Part shown: piece by piece, positions 1,310 through 54,831 of the stretch
How positions within the stretch are numbered: the first letter of the stretch is position 1
Layout: each line of letters starts with the position of its first letter
Source: Polymyxa betae
Lineage: Eukaryota; Endomyxa; Phytomyxea; Plasmodiophorida; Plasmodiophoridae
NCBI GenBank assembly: GCA_003693705.1
Contig: RBZT01000348.1
Span: forward strand, 62,001-126,000
Length of the DNA stretch: 64,000 bases
Direction: 5' to 3'
Made by a program: the position numbers and the translations under genes
The notes under the pieces: model-generated
Seen by the model: only the letters and a program-made list of their open reading frames with translations
What the model was told of the DNA's origin: nothing
The model's database searches: none

Positions 1310-1614
1310 GACACCCTCTTATATATTAACTATTATGGGAGCAGAACCATGACATCCTCTCTTAAAGATTAATTGTGAAGATGATACTATAATGGCAGCA
1401 GAACCCCTCAGCACTGTCTCGCATATAATCACAACCCCTAATTGCTCTGTTATCCACAGCAGGTTTGTCTGCAAATTCATCACTTCTCGATCTGCAGTGA
1501 AAGCTGCCAGATGCAATGTTCATGGGATGATTCCAGCGACCAGTTGGGTCAAACCTGCAATCAGAAATGTGATGTTTGACCACCACCCTTTGTGTTTCGA
1601 TGATTATGGTCTAT
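1310..1614. other. intergenic, no gene seen
   Basis: Spacer between the 3' end of the tubulin ligase-like gene and the start of the helical protein gene, both on the minus strand. It presumably holds the promoter of the latter. Short open frames here have no coding character. Confidence 0.5.
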
Positions 1615-3984
1615 TTATTCTACTGTCGAGATTACAACGCGACCTAGGCTGCCGATCATGAGCTTGCGAATAGCGTCGATCGGGTTTAGATCTGGGAACT
1701 GCCTGGCAGCGATGCCCAGAAGCGCCTCACAGAACAGCTCGAAGGTGATGATTCTTCCAGTCTTGTTGCTGGATACAAAATCGATGTTTGACGTCGCGAG
1801 CAGAAACAATTGTTACCTTGAGGATTTATGCACGATTGACGTTGAATGTTTAGCTGTTGTCATGATCATTTGCTGGAAAAGCAGGTCGGCATCCGATCGG
1901 GAGAATCCGCCCGATTTGTTGGTCAGATGGCAGGTTGATAGTAATCGGACGAATTTGTTTGAGCATAACATGGGTGACGATCGTTCTGCAATGCTGATTA
2001 AGTAGAGGCGCCATACAGATAGATCGCTGTTCTCAATGAACTGATCGGTTGTAGGCAGATTATCAGCTTGTAGATAAGGAATGTATTTAGTCAGATGATC
2101 GGATCCAGGTCCTGATTTCTCCAATATTCCCAGATTTAATAGACGCGCCATTTCTTTCTTCATCTCGTTCTGAATCTGAGTTCTGGTCTCTGCCTCGAAC
2201 GAAGCGATTTGTTTCATTGCTTTTCTCATAGCAAATCGTTCCGGTAATGAGAAATCGAACGATTGCTCATAGGTGCGATCTGCTTTATCTCTTTCTCTTT
2301 TTTCTTTGTATAGCAATTCCTTTCTCCACTGTTCCATCTGATGACGATGTTCGGTGGTAAACGGGGTCTTGAATACAAATATTTCTGACAGGACGGGATT
2401 TCTTTCCGGAATCAATTCAATGACGTCGATTGGTGCTTGGTCGCATGATAAAGCAGTTCCAGTGACAATCTCCAACGTCTTTTTGATAACAAACTGCTTG
2501 ATAGCCACGTCGACAAATGTATCTGTGGATAAACTCGGACATGAATTCACCTGAAAGAAAAACATTAAGAACCGATCTGAGCCAACGATGGTCAAGTGAT
2601 TCTGACCTCCAGCAGCCACAGTTTGTATTTGTCATCCATGAGAATATCAAATCCGAGCAATTGAAAACATTTGCATGGATCGGATGGCTGTTGCTGCCCA
2701 AACATAGACTGATAGCTTCCCCAAATCGATGGCCACAGTGCTATTAGAGTTTTACCAACAATATCGGAGACCTGCTTCCAGAATCCCTGATTATCGATCC
2801 CATGACCATGCTGCCTCAATTGTTCTAACGCGATCGATATACGGCGCTTACTCCCAGACGGATCGCGATCATCAACAGGATGCTTGTACGACCTGGACAT
2901 CTTGTTCAACGAATAATTCGTCAAATGCATGAAATTCCGATTCAAAGTGGCGTCTGCTGTTGACATGGTCGTGTACGGTTCGGTGGCGAATCGAGCTAGC
3001 CCATCCTGAAATAGATAGGCTCGTAATGGACTCAATGAATCGATCACAACATAGACTCTCATATCCCATTTCAGGCCATCAATCAACATGGGATTCGAGA
3101 CATAAGACTGGACCACGACCGACTTTCCATGAGGCTCGATACGATCGGCCAACTGACGAATCGTATCCCAACGACGAGTGATATGAATATCACGACCTTG
3201 ATAGCCCGAGCTTGGTTTCACGATGGCTGTACAAGTACCGGATTTCAGGGCGCGCTCAACAGCGATGCGATCCTGAGGCAGCTGCCAGGTTGAAGGGAAG
3301 TAATCGAAGGGCGCCCATGATTGGATTCGTCGTGATAGGTTTAGCAGCTTGGCGAGATTGGATTTCGTCACAATCGCATGCATCTGCGGGAGATAATTGA
3401 TCCTCTGATTTGGACCCAGAAGAGAATACAGCGATTGATTCGTATGATCGGACCATAGAATGGATGACGATGACATTGCTGACCATGGATTCTCTGCTAA
3501 TTGAGCAGAATTGCAATGTATGATCGATCGGACTAAAGGCAAGCAATCAGACGTTTTGTTAAGGGAGGTCTGAAAGACAATTATTACTGAGTTCTTTAGC
3601 TCCCGCATGATGGCATTTCGAAAGACAGATACCAATACGATGTCCCTTCTGCAAGCCAGCCTGTAGATCTTTTACATTTTCGACGGACCTGATCGCCCTC
3701 GTCGTACAGCCCTGGTTGCTGTTATCTTTCAAATTGACTTTCACTTCGGGCAAGATACAACTTGAGGACCTCTTCAGAGATGTATCAGCCAGATCTATCG
3801 ATTGCCGAATCTGATGGATTAGGGTGCGATTTGAGGATTCTTCACCGGGCGGCGTCGAATTGGATAGATAATGCAGAAGGCAACGACGAACCCGCTGTAA
3901 TCGCTGGTTTTGCAATCGGTCTAATAAATCAAACAGGGCGCTAGCTTCATCTTGATTCAATTTGAGGGTCAATTCTTCATCCAT
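1615..3984 (-). CDS. tubulin tyrosine ligase-like (TTLL) protein
   Basis: ATP-grasp ligase of the TTL family, which adds Tyr, Glu or Gly to tubulin tails. Four exons join cleanly: intron 1 (46 nt, near 3590-3635), intron 2 at 2551-2606 and intron 3 (48 nt, near 1762-1809). Visible TTL signatures are VKPSSGYQGRDIHI, VVQSYVSNPMLIDGLKWDMR, FMHLTNYSLNK, and the CFQLLGFDILMD segment followed by WLLEVNSCPS, the Mg/ATP-binding core, which is restored exactly across intron 2. The first ~140 residues are family-unspecific. Downstream of the TTL domain are a charged helical stretch and two degenerate EF-hand-like loops (LTNKSGGFSRSD and SSNKTGRIITFE) spaced 35 residues apart. Protein about 740 residues. 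The exact modification (tyrosination or polyglutamylation) cannot be told from sequence. A cilium or stable microtubule array is implied but not proven. Confidence 0.92.
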
Positions 3985-4507
3985 AGAGAGTAATCATGGA
4001 CAGCTTTCTGGTGTACTTCCTACGATCGACATTTTGATCATGATAGCTGTTAACCGCATGATAACAGCATCTGGAAATAGCTCTCGTGACGACCATATCA
4101 ATCCAGCAACTGGATTCTTCTGAACGGTCTCACGTTAAGTTTCTATCCTGGAGTCTGGAACATCTCATTATGTCAATGGCAGAATGGGGTTTAAGGAGTG
4201 TAGAATCTCTATATAAAGAAGAACCTGGACTGTCGCCGGCCTGGGCCCTACATTAGAATGATGGGTGTCATGACCCGATCCAACGATGGTGGCATAATCA
4301 ATCCAAATATAGCTCGATCATATTCGATACAAATTCGACACACACGCCACAGCAACCCGAGTCCCTACAGCTTCCTGTTATTCTACTCGCGGGAAGCTGC
4401 AGTCAATTCTGAAAACCAGATTATTGTTCATTGATATTTGAAATTTAATTGACTCGATAACGCAAGCAAGAACAGATTATGTTGTTTGGGTACATATCGT
4501 TCGGATT
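3985..4507. other. intergenic, no gene seen
   Basis: Region upstream of the TTLL gene. It contains an 8-bp inverted repeat (CAGCTTCC / GGAAGCTG, near 4370-4405) that could form a small hairpin. No coding frame or RNA gene was recognised. Confidence 0.4.
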
Positions 4508-5525
4508 ATGTCTAGACCATTGTTGGCAACTGCATATTCAATCGACTCCAACATTTGCTTTTCGCATAGCCCGATGGTAGGCATGACATCTCGTCTACGT
4601 AACTAACGCTGATTTAACGGATTCAGCCTCTGTTCAAAGATGTGTGTATTACCGCCCTGTATAAAACATTTACTGAAACAGATTATGACGAATTACTCGG
4701 CATTCCTTCTAAATAGCTGAGAGTCTTAGACCATCGCTGCGTCCAATCCGCATGGATTTACAGTCGCTAGCCTGCGATCCCATTGTCTGGAGCGCAGCTC
4801 CAAATCCGCATTCCATTTCACAGGAAGCGTCCCCTTTGTATCGCTACACCACCTTCTTCTGACTCTTATAATAATACAGACTGTTCCAGCGACCGGTTAA
4901 CGCCGTTCTTGAATCATCGAACGTATCCTGTCCTTCGTCTTAGGCTGATTACCTGAGATTGTATTCTTAGTTCTGATAGCTCCCGTGGTGACTCGTAATC
5001 TTTAGTTGGTTCATAACAGATTAACCGAACTATCCAATGGCAGGACCCGTATCCAGGATGTTCCCGACCCATACTGCATTGGCACTGAGCCCAACGTCCT
5101 CAGCTGTCCCAAATCCTAACGATCTGTGCTATGCTTGGTACCTGAATTCGCATCTTGCGTCTGACAACATGTGCAAGAAGCCAGCGTCATACCATGGGTA
5201 AGCCCTGTTGCTATACAGTACACACAAAGGATCCACGAACTATTGAGCCAGGGCCACAACAACATAGAATGCCTGGACTTTCTGCTCAGCATGTTTGAAA
5301 ATGAGACTGTGGAAGTGTTGTTCCCGTAAAGATGTTCTCAGGGAATCGCAACGATTCGTCGAGGAAGAAGACGTGGCTGAAGGCTGTGTTTCTCATCAGT
5401 CCAGTTTCAGTAACGCCATGCTCCTCCTGAGGTGTTGGCAGAGAGCACAGTATAGTGGTGTTTTGGAGACCATATTTCTCCCAAAGCGGTCATTGCTGTG
5501 GAATATGACAGATAATCGTTGAGAT
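4508..5525 (+). other. unresolved cluster of candidate plus-strand exons
   Basis: Several short stretches read like genuine protein but I could not assemble them. An ATG at 4508 with a clean 50-nt intron (4577-4626, CTAAC branch site) gives a 52-residue frame ending at 4716; its second exon includes CITALYKTFTETDYDELLGI. A frame near 4752-4850 starts MDLQSLACDPIVW. A frame near 5038-5200 starts MAGPVSRMFPTHTALAL. A frame near 5230-5330 reads HELLSQGHNNIECLDFLLSM. The last open frame is 5295-5522. Different splice choices give different frames. This may be one multi-exon gene, two small genes or a decaying gene. No family is recognised. Confidence 0.35.
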
Positions 5526-47040: not shown

Positions 47041-47711
47041 CTATGACAGCGACACCATCCATTCGGCAACTTTCGGGTTTTTGATCACATTCTTATACAA
47101 GTCATTGAGATTTTCATGACGATCCAAGGCATCTTTTCCAATCGGAGACACCGCTCCTAAAGCATATTAAAACTGTTATCGATATCGTCTTCTCAAAACA
47201 TACCACGCTTGACGGAATCGATCAGACCGAACAAGGACAGATCGGCGATTGTCAGCTGGTCTCCAACAGCGAATCCCTTCGTCTGCTGCCCGGCCAGACG
47301 ATTCAACGTATCGAACAGTTTCGCGAATGTATCGGCGTACACAGCCTCCATCAGCTGTCGGCGTGTCGCCTCATCTAGACCCGGCATCGACACCAACACG
47401 ACCGCGTTATAAAAGGTGTCGACAGCGGCGACAATCTCATCGACTGCCATGACCAGAATGGGGTTGGCCGGAAGCAAATCTCCTATATTACCGACGAATC
47501 GCAGCAGGGCGGACGCCTGCGCGTACAGGGTCCCGTTCACGACCATGAGCGGGCTCTGGCCGAACGGCGCCGTCGTCCGAAACGGCTCCCATTCTTCGGG
47601 CGATAGCCGCTCGTCCTCAAATGGGATATTACTGATGTGCAGGGCGAGACGGATCGGGTTGGCTCGCCCGGTTCTGTCGAAAGTTGTCAGCTTGATGGTT
47701 GGGTATCCCAT
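47041..47711 (-). CDS. glutathione S-transferase, sigma-like
   Basis: Cytosolic GST. The thioredoxin-like N-terminal domain reads KLTTFDRTGRANPIRLALH and ENIPF-type strand, with the cis-Pro and Ser motif FGQSPLMVVNG followed by LYAQASALLRFVG (family QSxAI/QSGA position for glutathione binding). The helical C-terminal domain has the hydrophobic staple and N-capping box (GDQLTIADLSLFGLIDSV). An intron of about 54 nt near 47140-47200 joins SVKRG to AVSPIGKDALDRHENL and the stop at 47041. About 205 residues, the usual size. The usual catalytic Tyr early in strand 1 is Phe (TTFDRTGR), so the catalytic residue is atypical. The start at 47711 has good family spacing. Confidence 0.92.
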
Positions 47712-48240
47712 CGGTCTTTGAATTCACCGATTTTATTAGCTCGGCATTAAAGTTGCCCGTACTGGACCGGACCCGGCCCACTGATCGCCCAGTCATTGCC
47801 GATCGATAAGCTTGGGCCAGTCCCGTCCTGCGACAATCGGCAAGATGCAAATCTTGCTTCCCTGAAGGAAGGTACTCACCGTCTTATGGATTACAGCTGC
47901 AGGTGTGATAGATTGTTCTTGGGGTCAGACGAAACGATCTGATGTTCGCCTGACTAGCTGGAGCCATTCGGAGTGGCCGAATCAAGCCCTGACAATTCAA
48001 TGGGCTGGTCAATGAGGAGCCGAGACAGCGACCGACAAAACAGCGCGTGACATGACGGCGACTGGCGCGGCCCTCTCGCTCACTGCGCCTTTCTAACTTA
48101 GCGCGGACGACAGGCCGTAGCGATAATTTCATGGCGAAGCGGCGCCCCTGTGGCAGTGAGTTTTGTGCACATGTGCGGAGCGACTGAGGGCGTGACCTCC
48201 TTCCCTCTTCATGTCCTTTCACCATCATTCTATCAATCCA
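47712..48240. other. divergent intergenic region GST / LYS fusion
   Basis: Relatively GC-rich 530 bases between divergently transcribed genes, so it probably holds both promoters. No coding frame convinces. Confidence 0.45.
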
Positions 48241-51200
48241 TGCTAGACAACATCACCGAGGTCTGGATCCGGTCCGAGTCGGCGAGCCAGGCGCCGCGAG
48301 GCGCTCGCCCCGATCTGGCCATCGATCGTCGAACGCCTCTTACGCCACAATGGACCGCCTATCTAATTGAGAATGACATCAGGTAGATTCGCCTTGTTCG
48401 CTCGTTATCTGCCAAAAACATTGTATTTAGTGTCACTGTTGAGTGCTCTACAGAACGGGCTTATCAAGACGAGGAATATGACCGATGCGGCTGCCGTATG
48501 GTTGCAACTGGGTCGTGGACATCAGCTCCCAAATCGGCGTTGATTTTGGGCTTACGACTTCCAGAGCCTCTTCCCTCAACGATTTCCCATGCACACGCTT
48601 TTTTTTGTCACGCTTATAAAGGCCAACCAAATTGGCATCGGCGCCTGCTTCCGTTTCTCAAAGGCGATTCCGTTCTGTATGACCTAGAGTATCTTGTAGA
48701 CGAGAACGGGCAGCGTTTAGCCTCTTTCGGCCAGACTGCGGGATCTATTGGACTTGCAACGTAAGGTTTTCTTCGACTTTTTAACACTGTTTTCTTATTC
48801 GCAACACAACAGAGGACTGTTCGCATGGTCTCGTCAAGTCTTGGCAAACAGATTCCCCGGGGTGTCTCTGCCGTCCAATATGTTATCAGGAATGACGATG
48901 AACAGCGTGGAGACATTGCTACGAATGGCTGAGCAATGGACACAGCAGAAACCTCGCTGTCTCGTCATCGGAGCTAATGGCCGATGCGGTCGCGGAGCCG
49001 TCGATTTCGCTGCATCCGCCAATGTCGAAATCGTTTGTTGGACCCGGGCTGATACTGCTCGTGGTGGTCCCTTTCCAGAGTTGCTTGATTTCGATATTGT
49101 CATTAATGCGATTCGCATCGATTCTGGTGATGCGTCGCTCTTCCAACCATGGCTGACCAATGAACTCATTCGAAGAGAGCCCCGACGTCTTTCCGTGATA
49201 GTAGATATCAGCTGCGAGCCGAATTCGATGTTAAACCCATTCCCTCTATACAAGCAGGCGACCTCATTCGAGAGACCGACGTTAACGCTAATCGAGGCTC
49301 ATGATGGACATTCTGCTCTTGATCTGATTGCTATTCCGAACCTGCCGTCTCTACTGCCAGTCGATAGCAGCAACCAGTTCAGCGCTCAGCTAGCGCCCCT
49401 GCTGTTCGACCTTCTCATAGAACGATCTGCAAAGGTCTTGTTGCCAGCCGGTGCTGCTTTCCACGCAGCTGTTTCCCCTCTGGTAATTCCGACTTTATCG
49501 AATAACGCTGCTAGAGTTCCAGCAGCGGATACCGAGGAGATCTCGTTCGATGCGGTTGCACTTGCAGATGGCTTCAACTTTGACAGCCTTCGATCCGCTG
49601 TTGAACAGCAGATCAAGCCTATGTTGAAATCAATCATATCCGGTTTAGAATTCGGTGATAAGAGCGGCGGAGGAAAAGTTGTGCTGCAGGATTACGACTT
49701 TGTAAATCGATGTGATGATATCCGGGACATCCAGCTGGTCTACATGAACTTGATGCGCAACCAGGAGTATGCACTTACTCGAGAACGACCTCTTCATATT
49801 CTCGTATCGCGATCTCATCTATCGGTCGCTGCTCATGGTGCAATTCTTGACCAGATTTCGGTGACGTTGCTGGCCAAGTATCTAGCAGAAGGCGATTTCT
49901 CGTTGACGAAATCAAGTTTGTCGAATTTGCAGTATTGTGATTATGCTCGATGGTTTGCCGAGCGACTGGAGGAATTGAAAACCGGTAACGATCACGATGG
50001 GCTTTTGCTTTTTCGTGATGATCAGCAGTACTGGAAGCAAACACTGCTTGCTGGTGATGGGCAAATTGTCAGCGCCCAGTTGCCAATGGATCTATCGCCT
50101 TCTCCAATGAGCTGGTAAGTCTTATGCAAAGATGGTATTCACAGCGATATAACTTTTCGGCGATCCAGGAAATTCACGACTCAAAAACGCCATACTGTCC
50201 CACTCCTGTCATCAGTGCTGCATTATCCAATGCCTGTGCAGGCTCTGGCAGCATTGTCACTCATCATTTATCGGCGTACGAACGAGCCCGATTTTGTCAT
50301 CGGGACCCGAGCTTCCTTTCGTAATAGGTGATGCCTCTTTTTCTCGGGTTTTGGATGCTTAGAATTCGCAGATATTCACTAAAGCATATTTTTGGGCCTT
50401 TCGAGGATCGGTCCATTCTGAGGCTTTCGCTGGACAAGGACATGACTGTCAAGGCATTGCTGGAGCAATGTATGCGTCAGTGGGAAGGCGTCGCACTACA
50501 TCAAGAACTACCACTGCGCCATCTCAACACTGATTATGCTCATCAAAATATCGAATTCATTGCCGAATCAGAACTTTCTGAACGATTCAATCTCACTGAG
50601 CCGCAGGGCTCCTACCAAATTCGCTTCCGTCTGTGGCCGAATTCGTTTCTAAGTATCGATTATGATCCGGGAACATTCCTTCCTGAATCCATCACTGAAC
50701 TGGCAAATCAAATCTGCTTGATTATTTCCGAACTGAACGAAAGCCTTCATATATCGACTCTGGACGTTAAATTGACGACACGAAGTGCCAGGCACCTTCT
50801 TCCAGACCCGACCCAACCCCTCGATTCTTCTTATCCTGGCCCGATTACTGAAGTTTTTAAAGAAAACTGTTTAAAAACCCCAGAGGCCATCGCCATATCG
50901 TCGGAAGGTATGCAAGAAACCGCTTTGCATCAATGCTTTAACGGCTCTGCTCAGATGTTTCTATAACGTATGGGCGACTATACGAGCATGTTTCATGGTT
51001 AGCTGGACAATTACGATCAGCTGGTATTAGACGTGGTGACATCGTTGCGATATACGGTGACCGCGTCCCGTCTGTTGTTTGGGCTATCATGGGCGTTCTA
51101 TTCTCTGGAGCTGCGTTGTCCATGATGGACCCCCGGTACCCAACCGAACGACTCATTGCATGCTTGGGCATAGCTAAACCGCGAGCTTGGATTGCTGTGA

Positions 51201-54200
51201 AATCTGCTGGCGAAATCAGCAGCGAGCTATCTTCTTTTCTTGACAAAGACTTGAACCTGGTGGCCAAAATCATACTGCCGCCGCTGGATGAGACGACTGA
51301 TGTGCTATCACTTAGAGCTGCTGCACCGACTGAGGATTTGGAGTTGCGCTCAGATAATGTCGGTTTCGGCCTAGAAATCGATCAAGACGATATCGCTGTT
51401 GTGACTTTCACATCTGGCTCAACAGGGCTGCCGAAAGGAGTTTGTGGCCGTCACGGCCCTCTGACACATTTCTATCCATGGATGAGAGAAAAGTTCCAGT
51501 TCTCTAACAAAGACCATTTCAGGTTAGTGTCACCGTTTGGTCATTATTTTGAACTGATCCATTGCCAGTATGTGCTCTGGGATTGCACACGACCCTTTGC
51601 AACGCGATATTTTCACGCCATTGTTTTTCGGCGCTCGCATCTGCATTCCTAGCGACTCTACGATCAGGGAAGGCCGGTTATCTCAGTGGATGGAACATGC
51701 CAGAATCAATGTCTCATGTTTAACCCCGGCCATGGGGCAGCTTCTCACAGCGTCGTACAATAGTGGTGATACCCCACCTCTTGAATGCTTGCGTTCCGTA
51801 TTCTTTGTTGGTGACTGCTTGATGAAATCGGACGTTATTCGGCTCCGCACAATGGCACCGAACGCTACCCTTGTCAACATGTACGGGTCAACCGAGACGC
51901 AAAGAGCCGTCGGGCATCTTGTTGTACCAGTTGACATCAACCCGATAAAAGACGTCGTTCCTGTTGGGGCTGGCATGTGCGATGTTCAGCTTCTAGTTAT
52001 TAATGAGGCTGGTAAACTAGCGGCCATAGGCGAGCGCGGTGAAATTTACGTTCGTTCGCCGCATCTGGCCAGAGGTTACCTTGGTCTTTCTGAACAAACG
52101 GCGGAGAAGTTCATTTTAAATCAATTCTTGGACAAGCCCGATCCACACGATAGAATGTACTTTGAAGTTGCTTTTGATCGATGCAATCTGGGCGTAATGG
52201 TTTGAATAGGTACCGAACTGGGGATTTAGGACAATATAATTCACGCGGCTGGGTCGAGTGTTGCGGTCGTTCCGACGATCAGGTTGGCTCCATATGATCC
52301 GTGCATCTATATCTTGACTGTTAGCAGGTTAAAATCCGTGGATTCCGTATCGAGCTAGGTGAGATCAACGCTCGATTATCTCGGCACCCTTATGTCAAAG
52401 AATGTGTCACAATTGTCGTAAACGAGGACGGCGGTAAGCACAAGTCTTTTGATGTGAATTCAACTTGATCGATGAATCGGATTTGTTGTGGCTAGATAAG
52501 CTGTTGGTTTCATTTGTTGTGTTGAACATCGAGATTGCATCCCGCGACAAAGACGTCGAAGACATAGTTGCTGTCTTAAAAGTAGACCTACAGAGCTCGC
52601 TGCCGCATTATATGGTCCCAGCAGCAATCCATATCATCAGCTCGATGCCGCTGACGCCGAATGGCAAGATCAATCGCAGCGCTTTGCGGGCGCCGCGTCG
52701 CGAATCGATGCATCAGCCTCCGGCTATATTAAATAATACTCAGGAGAAGATCGTGCAGGTTTGGAACCGTCTCCTGCCCAACGTTGGCGAGGTCAATATC
52801 GATGCGAACTTTTTCGATCTGGGCGGTCACAGCTTGTTGGCAACGCGACTCATAATGGGTATGTAGTAAGGTCTAGTCTGTCATTCTGGCTCAAATTGTA
52901 ATTCAGAGTTGTCGCGATCCTTTCATTTGACGATTCCCTTACAAACATTGTTCACAAACGCCACGATCCGTTCTCTTGCAGAAGCAATCGACTCGCTAGG
53001 CGGGGATCGCAAGTGCGACGACCAGAATAAGATGCCGAATCTTATAGAAGATGTGAACTATAATTGGTGTTCCGATATTGAAATTGCCATTCAGAAACCG
53101 AATGATGAAGTGAAGAACGTTCTCGTAAGGATGTCGCTTTCTGTTGTGCCGATCTTTCAACTTATTATAGTTGACTGGATGCACTGGTTTTGTCGGCTGC
53201 TATTTATTGGTAGAATTACTTCAGTGCCTTCCTACAGCACAAATCCATTGCACAGTTCGTGCCGAATCTGGCGCTGCCGGTATGATCAGGTTTGAAACAG
53301 TTTTACGTATTTCTGCACTTACCGTGTTTACCTCATCATCAGGATCTGTAAAGCCCTTCAAAGTCACCTGCTCTGGCGCGACGAGTTTCAGAATCGCATT
53401 ACTCCTATCATTTCGGATTTCTCAAAACCGAACGCTGGCTGGACCGACGTATTCCGCTTTGACGATACGGTTTTCCATAGTAGCTTATTTTTCTAGGAAA
53501 CTGTCACGGAAATTTGCTCGAAAATTGATATCATCGTCCATAATGCTGCTCATGTTCACTGGCTGCTGCCTTATGATCGGTTGCGGGCCGTTAACGTTTC
53601 CGCTACCGAATTTTTCCTAAAGATCGCTGCCAACCTTAAGTTGAAACCATTCCATTTCATAAGGTGTGAATGTTGACTTCACTGTCACGTCTGTGCTCAA
53701 ATGTTATTGCAGCACAACTTCTGTTTTGGAATCTGCCCAAAACAAAGATTCGTCCAAGAAAATGTTACTCTTGGAGTCTGCACTGAATGACAATTTTCGA
53801 GGTACTTACAATTCAGAATTGTGTTTGTCGATTTTTACATGGTCATCCATTGAACTGGAACGATTGCTCAGGTTTGAGCAGTGGCTATGCCCAATCAAAA
53901 TGGGTTGCCGAAAAACTCGTGAGCGAAGCCAGTTCTAAAGGAATCACAGGTAGCTCAGTTTGTAAGGACTCGATAATGCTTCTCATGCTATGCTTCAGCC
54001 AACATCTATCGGCTGGGTTATGTAACTGGCGATTCCCGTACCGGTATCAGCAATACCGATGATTTTTTGGTTAGGTTAATGCAAGGTATTGTAGTTCTAT
54101 ACGACAATCTCTGTGTAACCATTCTTCGTAGGCTGCATTGAACTGGGGTCCTGTCCTTTTATGGAGTTTGTTGACGGTAGGAGTATCGATCATCCTTATT

Positions 54201-54831
54201 AGGCGGTTTATCAATTACAGTTTTTAGGTGATCGCGGATTCACAATCGACATGAGCCCGGCAGACTATGTAGCAAAAACCGTCGTTGAAATCGTTACCCA
54301 CAAAAAGTCTGCCGGGCGGGTTTTCCATGTCACAAGCCCGAACCCTTTGCCTTTCTTGTCTTTTTTCCAGCAGATCAAAGATTACGGTCCCGACGATGAT
54401 ACAGTTTATGCTGTTCTTATTGCTGATAACTTTCTCAGGTTACGAATTGGTGAATCTGCCGTATGCAACATGGCGACAAAAACTTTTGGAATCTGTCGCA
54501 CGAAATGAACCCAATGCTCTAACACCGATCGTCTCGTATTTAACCGAGAACTGGACCGACGATCTTGCTAAAGGACTTCAGCTTGATCGTTCGAATGTCT
54601 TGGAACTTTCGAGCACCAAATTTCCCTGTTTAGACAGAATCGGTCAGAATATCGCTCCATGTTGCGATCCAATGCTGATACCCTAACCACACAGTTCATA
54701 TATATCTGTCTTATCTCGTCCGATGTGGTGCTATTCCTGCTCCCAGAGATGCCCCAGATGATCATCTTCAAATTGATTGGAGCGCTATTACCGCCCAGGT
54801 ACATCGTGTCACGCGAACACAGCGAAGCTGA
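48241..54831 (+). CDS. LYS1-LYS2: fused saccharopine dehydrogenase and aminoadipate reductase
   Basis: A single open gene of about 1900+ residues joining two enzymes of the alpha-aminoadipate lysine pathway. Part 1 is NAD saccharopine dehydrogenase (LYS1, last step): [17 protein letters not shown], then after a 48-nt intron [46 protein letters not shown] and the Rossmann motif [15 protein letters not shown], with [14 protein letters not shown] near its end. The same uninterrupted exon (to 50118) continues into part 2, alpha-aminoadipate reductase (LYS2, first committed step): condensation-like region ([20 protein letters not shown]), adenylation domain ([17 protein letters not shown] near 51407; [33 protein letters not shown]), carrier domain with phosphopantetheine Ser ([14 protein letters not shown] near 52808-52850), and thioester reductase ([50 protein letters not shown]). 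A 52-nt intron precedes the last exon ([18 protein letters not shown]), stop 54829-54831. No stop, promoter or intron separates the two parts. Confidence 0.93.

Follow-up and report, generated by a model that had tools for sequence, protein, structure and literature searches.

A LYS1-derived domain of altered catalytic residues joined to the N-terminus of an aminoadipate reductase (LYS2)

Introduction

The closest known relatives of the gene reported here belong to lysine metabolism. Fungal LYS2 (TIGR03443) consists of adenylation, carrier and reductase domains with a condensation-like region ahead of them, LYS1 is the NAD+-dependent saccharopine dehydrogenase that forms lysine, and AASS (LKR-SDH), which acts in lysine catabolism, combines a LYS1-type with a LYS9-type domain. 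In yeast LYS1, acid-base catalysis is assigned to Lys77 and His96 in the title of a reference cited in PMC9490328. According to excerpts of PMC13174811 (a preprint) and PMC9490328, the yeast catalytic residues are kept as Lys93 and His111 in the LYS1-type half of human AASS (lysine-2-oxoglutarate reductase), in which saccharopine is bound by Arg39, Arg146 and Gln116 with Lys114 nearby, and in which the preference for NADPH is attributed to Ser266 and Arg267 at the position of the yeast aspartate.

A fusion of a lysine-pathway gene is likewise found in basidiomycetes, where SPE3 is joined to LYS9 and both products are reported to be functional in Cryptococcus neoformans (PMC10051792, excerpt); the genes concerned differ from those described below. 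N-acetylglutamate synthase carries an amino acid kinase domain that holds its arginine site (PMC5146650, excerpt). For a fusion of LYS1 and LYS2, of which a sequence-only reading of the present locus was not aware of any description, none was given in the titles and abstract openings of the openly licensed papers listed in literature searches, nor was a description of it found in the excerpts of PMC2705460, PMC10051792 and PMC8779187.

Results

The locus lies in a stretch of 64,000 nucleotides of the Polymyxa betae genome (the window), where one gene encodes a protein with a LYS1-type saccharopine dehydrogenase as its N-terminal and a LYS2-type aminoadipate reductase as its C-terminal part. 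The LYS1-derived domain is designated LYS1* in the following. The gene and its domains are:

48240..54831, + strand: LYS1*-LYS2 fusion gene, 21 exons, 1858 aa (P0001); hand-built model, relatives with the same order
48813..50114, + strand: exon 3, containing the LYS1*/LYS2 junction, no stop; open frame and model
48240..49473, + strand: LYS1* domain (exons 1-3, aa 1-378, with its end judged by eye); yeast LYS1 match, and PF05222 at aa 29-152, E 6.4e-13
49522..50837, + strand: condensation-like region, poorly conserved (aa 395-800, both ends judged by eye); PF00668 at aa 490-704, E 5.9e-10
50856..52692, + strand: LYS2 adenylation domain (aa 807-1334); PF00501 at aa 807-1184, E 1.7e-62, and PF13193 at aa 1245-1326
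52744..52989, + strand: carrier domain (aa 1352-1417) with attachment Ser1381 (52831-52833); PF00550, E 1.4e-15, GGHS motif in 6/6 fused proteins
53116..54828, + strand: thioester reductase domain (aa 1460-1858); PF07993 (NAD_binding_4) at aa 1463-1710, E 2.5e-63, and TIGR01746 at aa 1460-1824

The model was built on the genomic sequence, and its splice sites, as well as those of a LYS9-LYS1 gene described below, were picked by hand, guided by the appearance of LYS1, LYS2 and LYS9, and are not blind predictions. It extends from an ATG at 48240 to a TGA at 54829-54831 and includes 20 introns, all GT-AG and 44-70 nt in length, without an internal stop. The gene had been placed at 48241-54831 from the sequence alone, and while the end is exact, the ATG was found at 48240. 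That both parts are joined in one gene, with neither stop nor intron at the junction, was confirmed by a frame that is open from 48721 to 50118; the single open exon proposed at 48790-50118 was recovered in a slightly shorter form, and the Rossmann glycine motif expected near 48971 begins at 48970. Upstream of the fusion gene and in the opposite orientation, a glutathione S-transferase-like gene is located at 47196-47723 on the minus strand.

LYS1 homology spans the entire LYS1* domain, as seen from the PF05222 match, from the match of yeast LYS1 (2q99) to residues 75-241 of the open frame (E 1.6e-25) and from the position of the fused proteins among LYS1 rows (see below). In the remaining protein, PF00501, PF00550 and PF07993 follow one another in the order adenylation, carrier and thioester reductase that is expected of LYS2, and the best NCBIfam match of P0001 was TIGR03443 (L-aminoadipate-semialdehyde dehydrogenase; residues 617-1838, E 1.7e-277), although its 923.7 bits fall short of the cut-off, 1030.1. 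The carrier serine and the reductase motifs TGxTGxxG and YxxxK are intact in all six fused proteins. The protein thus resembles fungal LYS2 in its three domains with intact motifs and in the condensation-like region ahead of them, whereas it differs in the N-terminal LYS1-derived domain, in a condensation-like region that is longer as judged by eye, and in a score below the TIGR03443 cut-off. The length of this region (49522-50837 in the window) is also apparent in P0003, where PF00668 is matched nearly whole, and in P0061, where it is matched from profile position 107; P0061 carries the long region, yet has no LYS1 half. The His motif of the region is degenerate in 6/6 fused proteins.

A protein search for the same two-part architecture, as the sequence-only reading had proposed, yielded at least five further LYS1-LYS2 proteins. 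With full-length P0001 as query, 7983 candidates were scored and 7058 passed; among the best 120 of these 7058, which were listed, P0002, P0003, P0004 and P0005 aligned with the same LYS1-LYS2 order. In a second search with an alignment of the fused proteins, 259 of 7991 candidates passed, and P0122 was identified as the fifth relative among the matches listed (best 120 of 259). The count is a lower bound, as each list covers the best 120 matches; the remaining listed proteins were judged for a LYS1 part by their listed domains. P0004 and P0005 lie close to one another, and neither includes the first part of LYS1. The relative P0003, a Trinity transcript from EukProt, can be aligned with 100% of the query, so that the LYS1-LYS2 joint is also present in a transcript from a different species. 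The source of all five relatives is either 'lgn' or 'eukprot'; among the matches listed, none of them had nr, uniref or ncbi as source. The LYS1-LYS2 fusion is real.

Mean identity among the fused proteins amounted to 46% in LYS1* (both parts), compared with 56% in the adenylation domain, 43% each in carrier and reductase, and 20-24% in the condensation-like region. These means were calculated over 14/15 pairs, excluding the close pair P0004/P0005; for the first part of LYS1*, 6 pairs were used. Since a merely decayed domain would not be expected to match the reductase in conservation, LYS1* is, as judged from these identities, under selection.

To compare single residues, 128 rows were aligned, comprising the six fused LYS1 halves, the LYS1 half of the LYS9-LYS1 protein, two pieces of P0241 and 119 separate LYS1 proteins. 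The latter are the top matches of one search minus P0241; they are mostly bacterial or unnamed and do not constitute a random sample. P0241 has 627 aa and contains two tandem LYS1-type copies, both with Lys77, the LYS1 likeness of the second copy ending part-way. Yeast residue numbers, which are used throughout, were counted by hand from alignments with yeast LYS1. Human residues were also mapped by hand on alignments, the match of Ser266-Arg267 to the aspartate resting on a statement in an excerpt of PMC9490328. The residues of the window protein that bear most on its function are:

48555..48557, + strand: Arg90, replacing catalytic Lys77 of yeast LYS1; R in 4/4 fused rows covering the site, K in 119/119 separate LYS1
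49042..49047, + strand: Thr235-Arg236, an NADPH-type pair replacing the NAD ribose-binding Asp; T/G plus R in 6/6 fused rows, compare human Ser266-Arg267 (PMC9490328, excerpt)
49336..49338, + strand: Pro333, replacing Asp319 of yeast LYS1; P in 6/6 fused rows, D in 118/119 separate LYS1
48609..48626, + strand: His108, Lys111 and Gln113, corresponding to the kept catalytic His96 and the kept carboxylate-site Lys99 and Gln101; 6/6 fused rows

There are 57 near-invariant LYS1 columns, 40 of which are retained in all fused rows covering them, while 12 are mixed and 5 are changed in all; the last group consists of Lys77, Glu78, the following Leu, a Trp and Asp319. The acid-base pair of LYS1 is incomplete in LYS1*, with His96 present in 6/6 fused rows and Lys77 replaced by Arg in the four that cover it; the region around Lys77 is absent from two of the six fused proteins. 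Asp319, which presumably acts together with Lys99, is also an Asp in the human enzyme according to the alignment. At position 78 the separate LYS1 proteins have E (116) or D (3 of 119), and the fused rows have L, D, V and D; the loss of Glu78 alone means little because the active human enzyme has an Arg there. The Asp that binds the NAD ribose in LYS1, after the second strand, is present in 111/119 separate LYS1 and gives way to T/G followed by R in all fused rows; a G-R pair occurs in 2/119 separate LYS1 (P0291 and P0353). Cys249 is changed to Ala in 6/6 fused rows, and also in 6/119 separate LYS1.

On the other side, Arg18 is kept in the 4/4 fused rows covering it, and His96, Lys99, Gln101, Arg131 and the Ala-Gly pair at the nicotinamide are each kept in 6/6. 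The residues holding saccharopine in the human enzyme are among those retained. The latch aspartate (human Asp358) is D in five fused rows and E in the window protein. Exceptions within the fused proteins are Arg204, which is L in P0004/P0005, Cys205, which is V in P0003, P0004 and P0005, and Glu122, which is A in P0122; the losses of Arg204 and Glu122 may lead to weaker binding in some of them. So, going by the alignment, LYS1* retains the saccharopine site and possesses an NADPH-type site, and is without the catalytic lysine. In comparison with LYS1, homology covers the whole domain and Arg18, His96, Lys99, Gln101 and Arg131 are shared in the rows covering them, whereas Lys77, Glu78, Asp319 and the NAD-binding Asp are replaced and the domain is fused to LYS2. 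With AASS, the window protein has in common that a LYS1-type domain is part of a lysine-metabolism fusion and that a Ser/Thr-Arg pair of the NADPH type is present; in AASS, however, the partner is a LYS9-type domain and the catalytic Lys is kept, whereas here the partner is LYS2 and this Lys is lost.

When the same genome was searched with the LYS1 half of P0003, matches were obtained to the fusion gene, to another locus on contig C1 and, as a weak match, to contig C425:

C1:37059-40294 (L008:1060-4295): LYS9-LYS1 fusion gene, 16 exons, 832 aa (P0361); hand-built model in one frame, PF03435 and PF16653 (LYS9), PF05222 (LYS1)
C425, L027 about 1520-5347, minus strand: AASS-type LKR-SDH exons, LYS1-type then LYS9-type as in AASS; exon matches

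The domain order of the LYS9-LYS1 protein is the reverse of that in AASS, and no in-frame ATG that could serve as an own start codon for its LYS1 half is present between the upstream stop and the first LYS1 residues. This LYS1 half keeps Lys77, Glu78, Asp319 and the NAD-binding Asp, and deviates at 5 other near-invariant columns. The same genome thus appears to contain a LYS9-LYS1 gene in addition to an AASS gene of the catabolic type. A search for a second LYS2 in this genome with the LYS2 part of P0122 returned only the fusion gene, apart from two weak matches elsewhere (E 1.8e-4 and 7.2e-4). Homocitrate synthase-like exons were detected on C353; exons resembling homoaconitase lie on C252, and a single one on C248. 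As none of them exceeded the family cut-off, and as the two families were matched in 14/14 control genomes (above cut-off in 2 and 0, respectively), this evidence is weak; the exons would fit lysine synthesis by the aminoadipate route and are not proof of it.

Phylogenies of each half, which had also been suggested by the sequence-only reading, gave differing pictures. For LYS1, 69 of the 128 rows were used (8 named rows, every second separate LYS1, and P0335) in a quick search without bootstrap. The six fused LYS1 halves formed a single clade (SH-aLRT 100), which was placed near fungal-named LYS1 rows (P0335, P0350) and the LYS9-LYS1 row with weak support. The LYS2 tree was calculated from 30 hand-chosen rows (6 fused, 20 others and 4 outgroup), for which the program warned of long branches. 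Here the group containing the fused proteins was separate from the sampled fungi (Basidiobolus, Gilbertella, Coemansia, Obelidium and Thamnocephalis), which clustered with P0112 and with P0088, whose name prefix CFRG we take to denote Creolimax. Within their group, the fused proteins were intermixed with proteins without a LYS1 half, of which P0050, P0055 and P0061 are EukProt transcripts named complete and the others are short. The fused rows were recovered as one clade on the LYS2 side in 0% of 200 bootstrap trees; the fusion label needs 3 changes on this tree, and the well-supported branches force at least 2. The fusion may have arisen by one gain with subsequent losses or by more than one event.

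Discussion

We propose, at about even chances, that a LYS1 copy has turned into a regulatory domain on LYS2 that binds NADPH and saccharopine or lysine. A LYS2 with condensation-like region, adenylation, carrier and reductase domains would carry the repurposed copy as its N-terminus. The kept residues of LYS1* could hold saccharopine, or lysine together with 2-oxoglutarate, while the NADPH-type nucleotide site would bind NADPH. Lysine production would most likely have been lost with the catalytic lysine and the active-site aspartate, and probably rests with the LYS9-LYS1 protein, which this genome encodes separately. LYS1* would then most likely sense NADPH together with a metabolite from further down the pathway, and adjust LYS2 in the same chain. 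Regulation of this kind would resemble N-acetylglutamate synthase, where a pathway-enzyme domain with an allosteric site is fused to an entry enzyme (PMC5146650, excerpt), although folds and pathway are unrelated. Several observations count against a sensor: His96 is kept, which might leave some residual chemistry; the Lys77 region is absent from two of the six fused proteins; Cys249 to Ala and the G-R pair are also present in some separate LYS1; and the LYS1 of the LYS9-LYS1 protein itself deviates at 5 near-invariant columns.

The sequence-only reading had proposed a bifunctional protein, with LYS1 and LYS2 both active, that couples entry and exit of the pathway. Both halves are in frame, the LYS2 motifs are intact and His96 is kept; nevertheless, this idea has fared poorly and is considered quite improbable, as Lys77 and Asp319 are lost in all fused rows covering them and another LYS1 with these two residues is present in the same genome. 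A LYS1* that remains an enzyme of altered chemistry, either as a reductase that uses NADPH and has the aldehyde or imine released by LYS2 as its substrate, or as a LYS1 running in reverse, is rather unlikely, but has more in its favor. Its NADPH-type pair is like that of human lysine-2-oxoglutarate reductase (PMC9490328, excerpt), the domain is strongly conserved, and His96, Lys99, Gln101, Arg131 and the Ala-Gly nicotinamide site are kept in 6/6. Yet Lys77 and Asp319 are lost here although they are kept in the distant catabolic reductase, both in the human protein and in the copy from the same genome. Arginine, moreover, is poorly suited to acid-base catalysis at neutral pH.

That LYS1* serves for docking, as a scaffold that brings LYS2 to the LYS9-LYS1 protein and allows the unstable semialdehyde to be passed on, would be in line with the presence of LYS1-type domains on two separate proteins of this genome, one on LYS2 and one on LYS9. 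Yeast LYS1, however, is monomeric, and docking by itself leaves the kept ligand-binding residues and the NADPH-type site unexplained, which renders this role improbable. As for an artefact of assembly or of the gene model, the splice sites were chosen by hand on genomic sequence, but the junction lies within one open exon, and an assembly error or chance is very unlikely as the source of the fusion because five other proteins have the same LYS1-LYS2 order, one of them a Trinity transcript. The assembly artefact was rejected on account of these fused relatives, and we regard the chance of any such artefact as negligible.

Extending the reading of LYS1* as a regulatory domain, it is tentatively suggested, with more doubt than confidence, that in eukaryotes apart from the sampled fungi LYS2 has captured a LYS1 copy that became an allosteric domain sensing saccharopine or lysine and NADPH, which would place feedback control at the aminoadipate reductase while the last two steps reside on LYS9-LYS1. 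If this is true, one genome would contain three fused lysine-metabolism genes (LYS1*-LYS2, LYS9-LYS1 and the AASS-type gene), and a lysine pathway that operates in fungi and some other eukaryotes, but not in animals, might possess an extra control point. LYS1*-LYS2 is a conserved case in which a late pathway enzyme is attached to an earlier one and has lost catalytic residues but kept binding residues. It permits a direct test of the conversion of an enzyme into a sensor, and it illustrates that a joined gene need not be a bifunctional enzyme.

Changes at the nucleotide site also occur in LYS1 proteins that stand alone. The NAD-binding Asp is missing in 8/119 separate LYS1 (P0248, P0291, P0319, P0321, P0322, P0325, P0332 and P0353), which hints that some of these may use NADPH.
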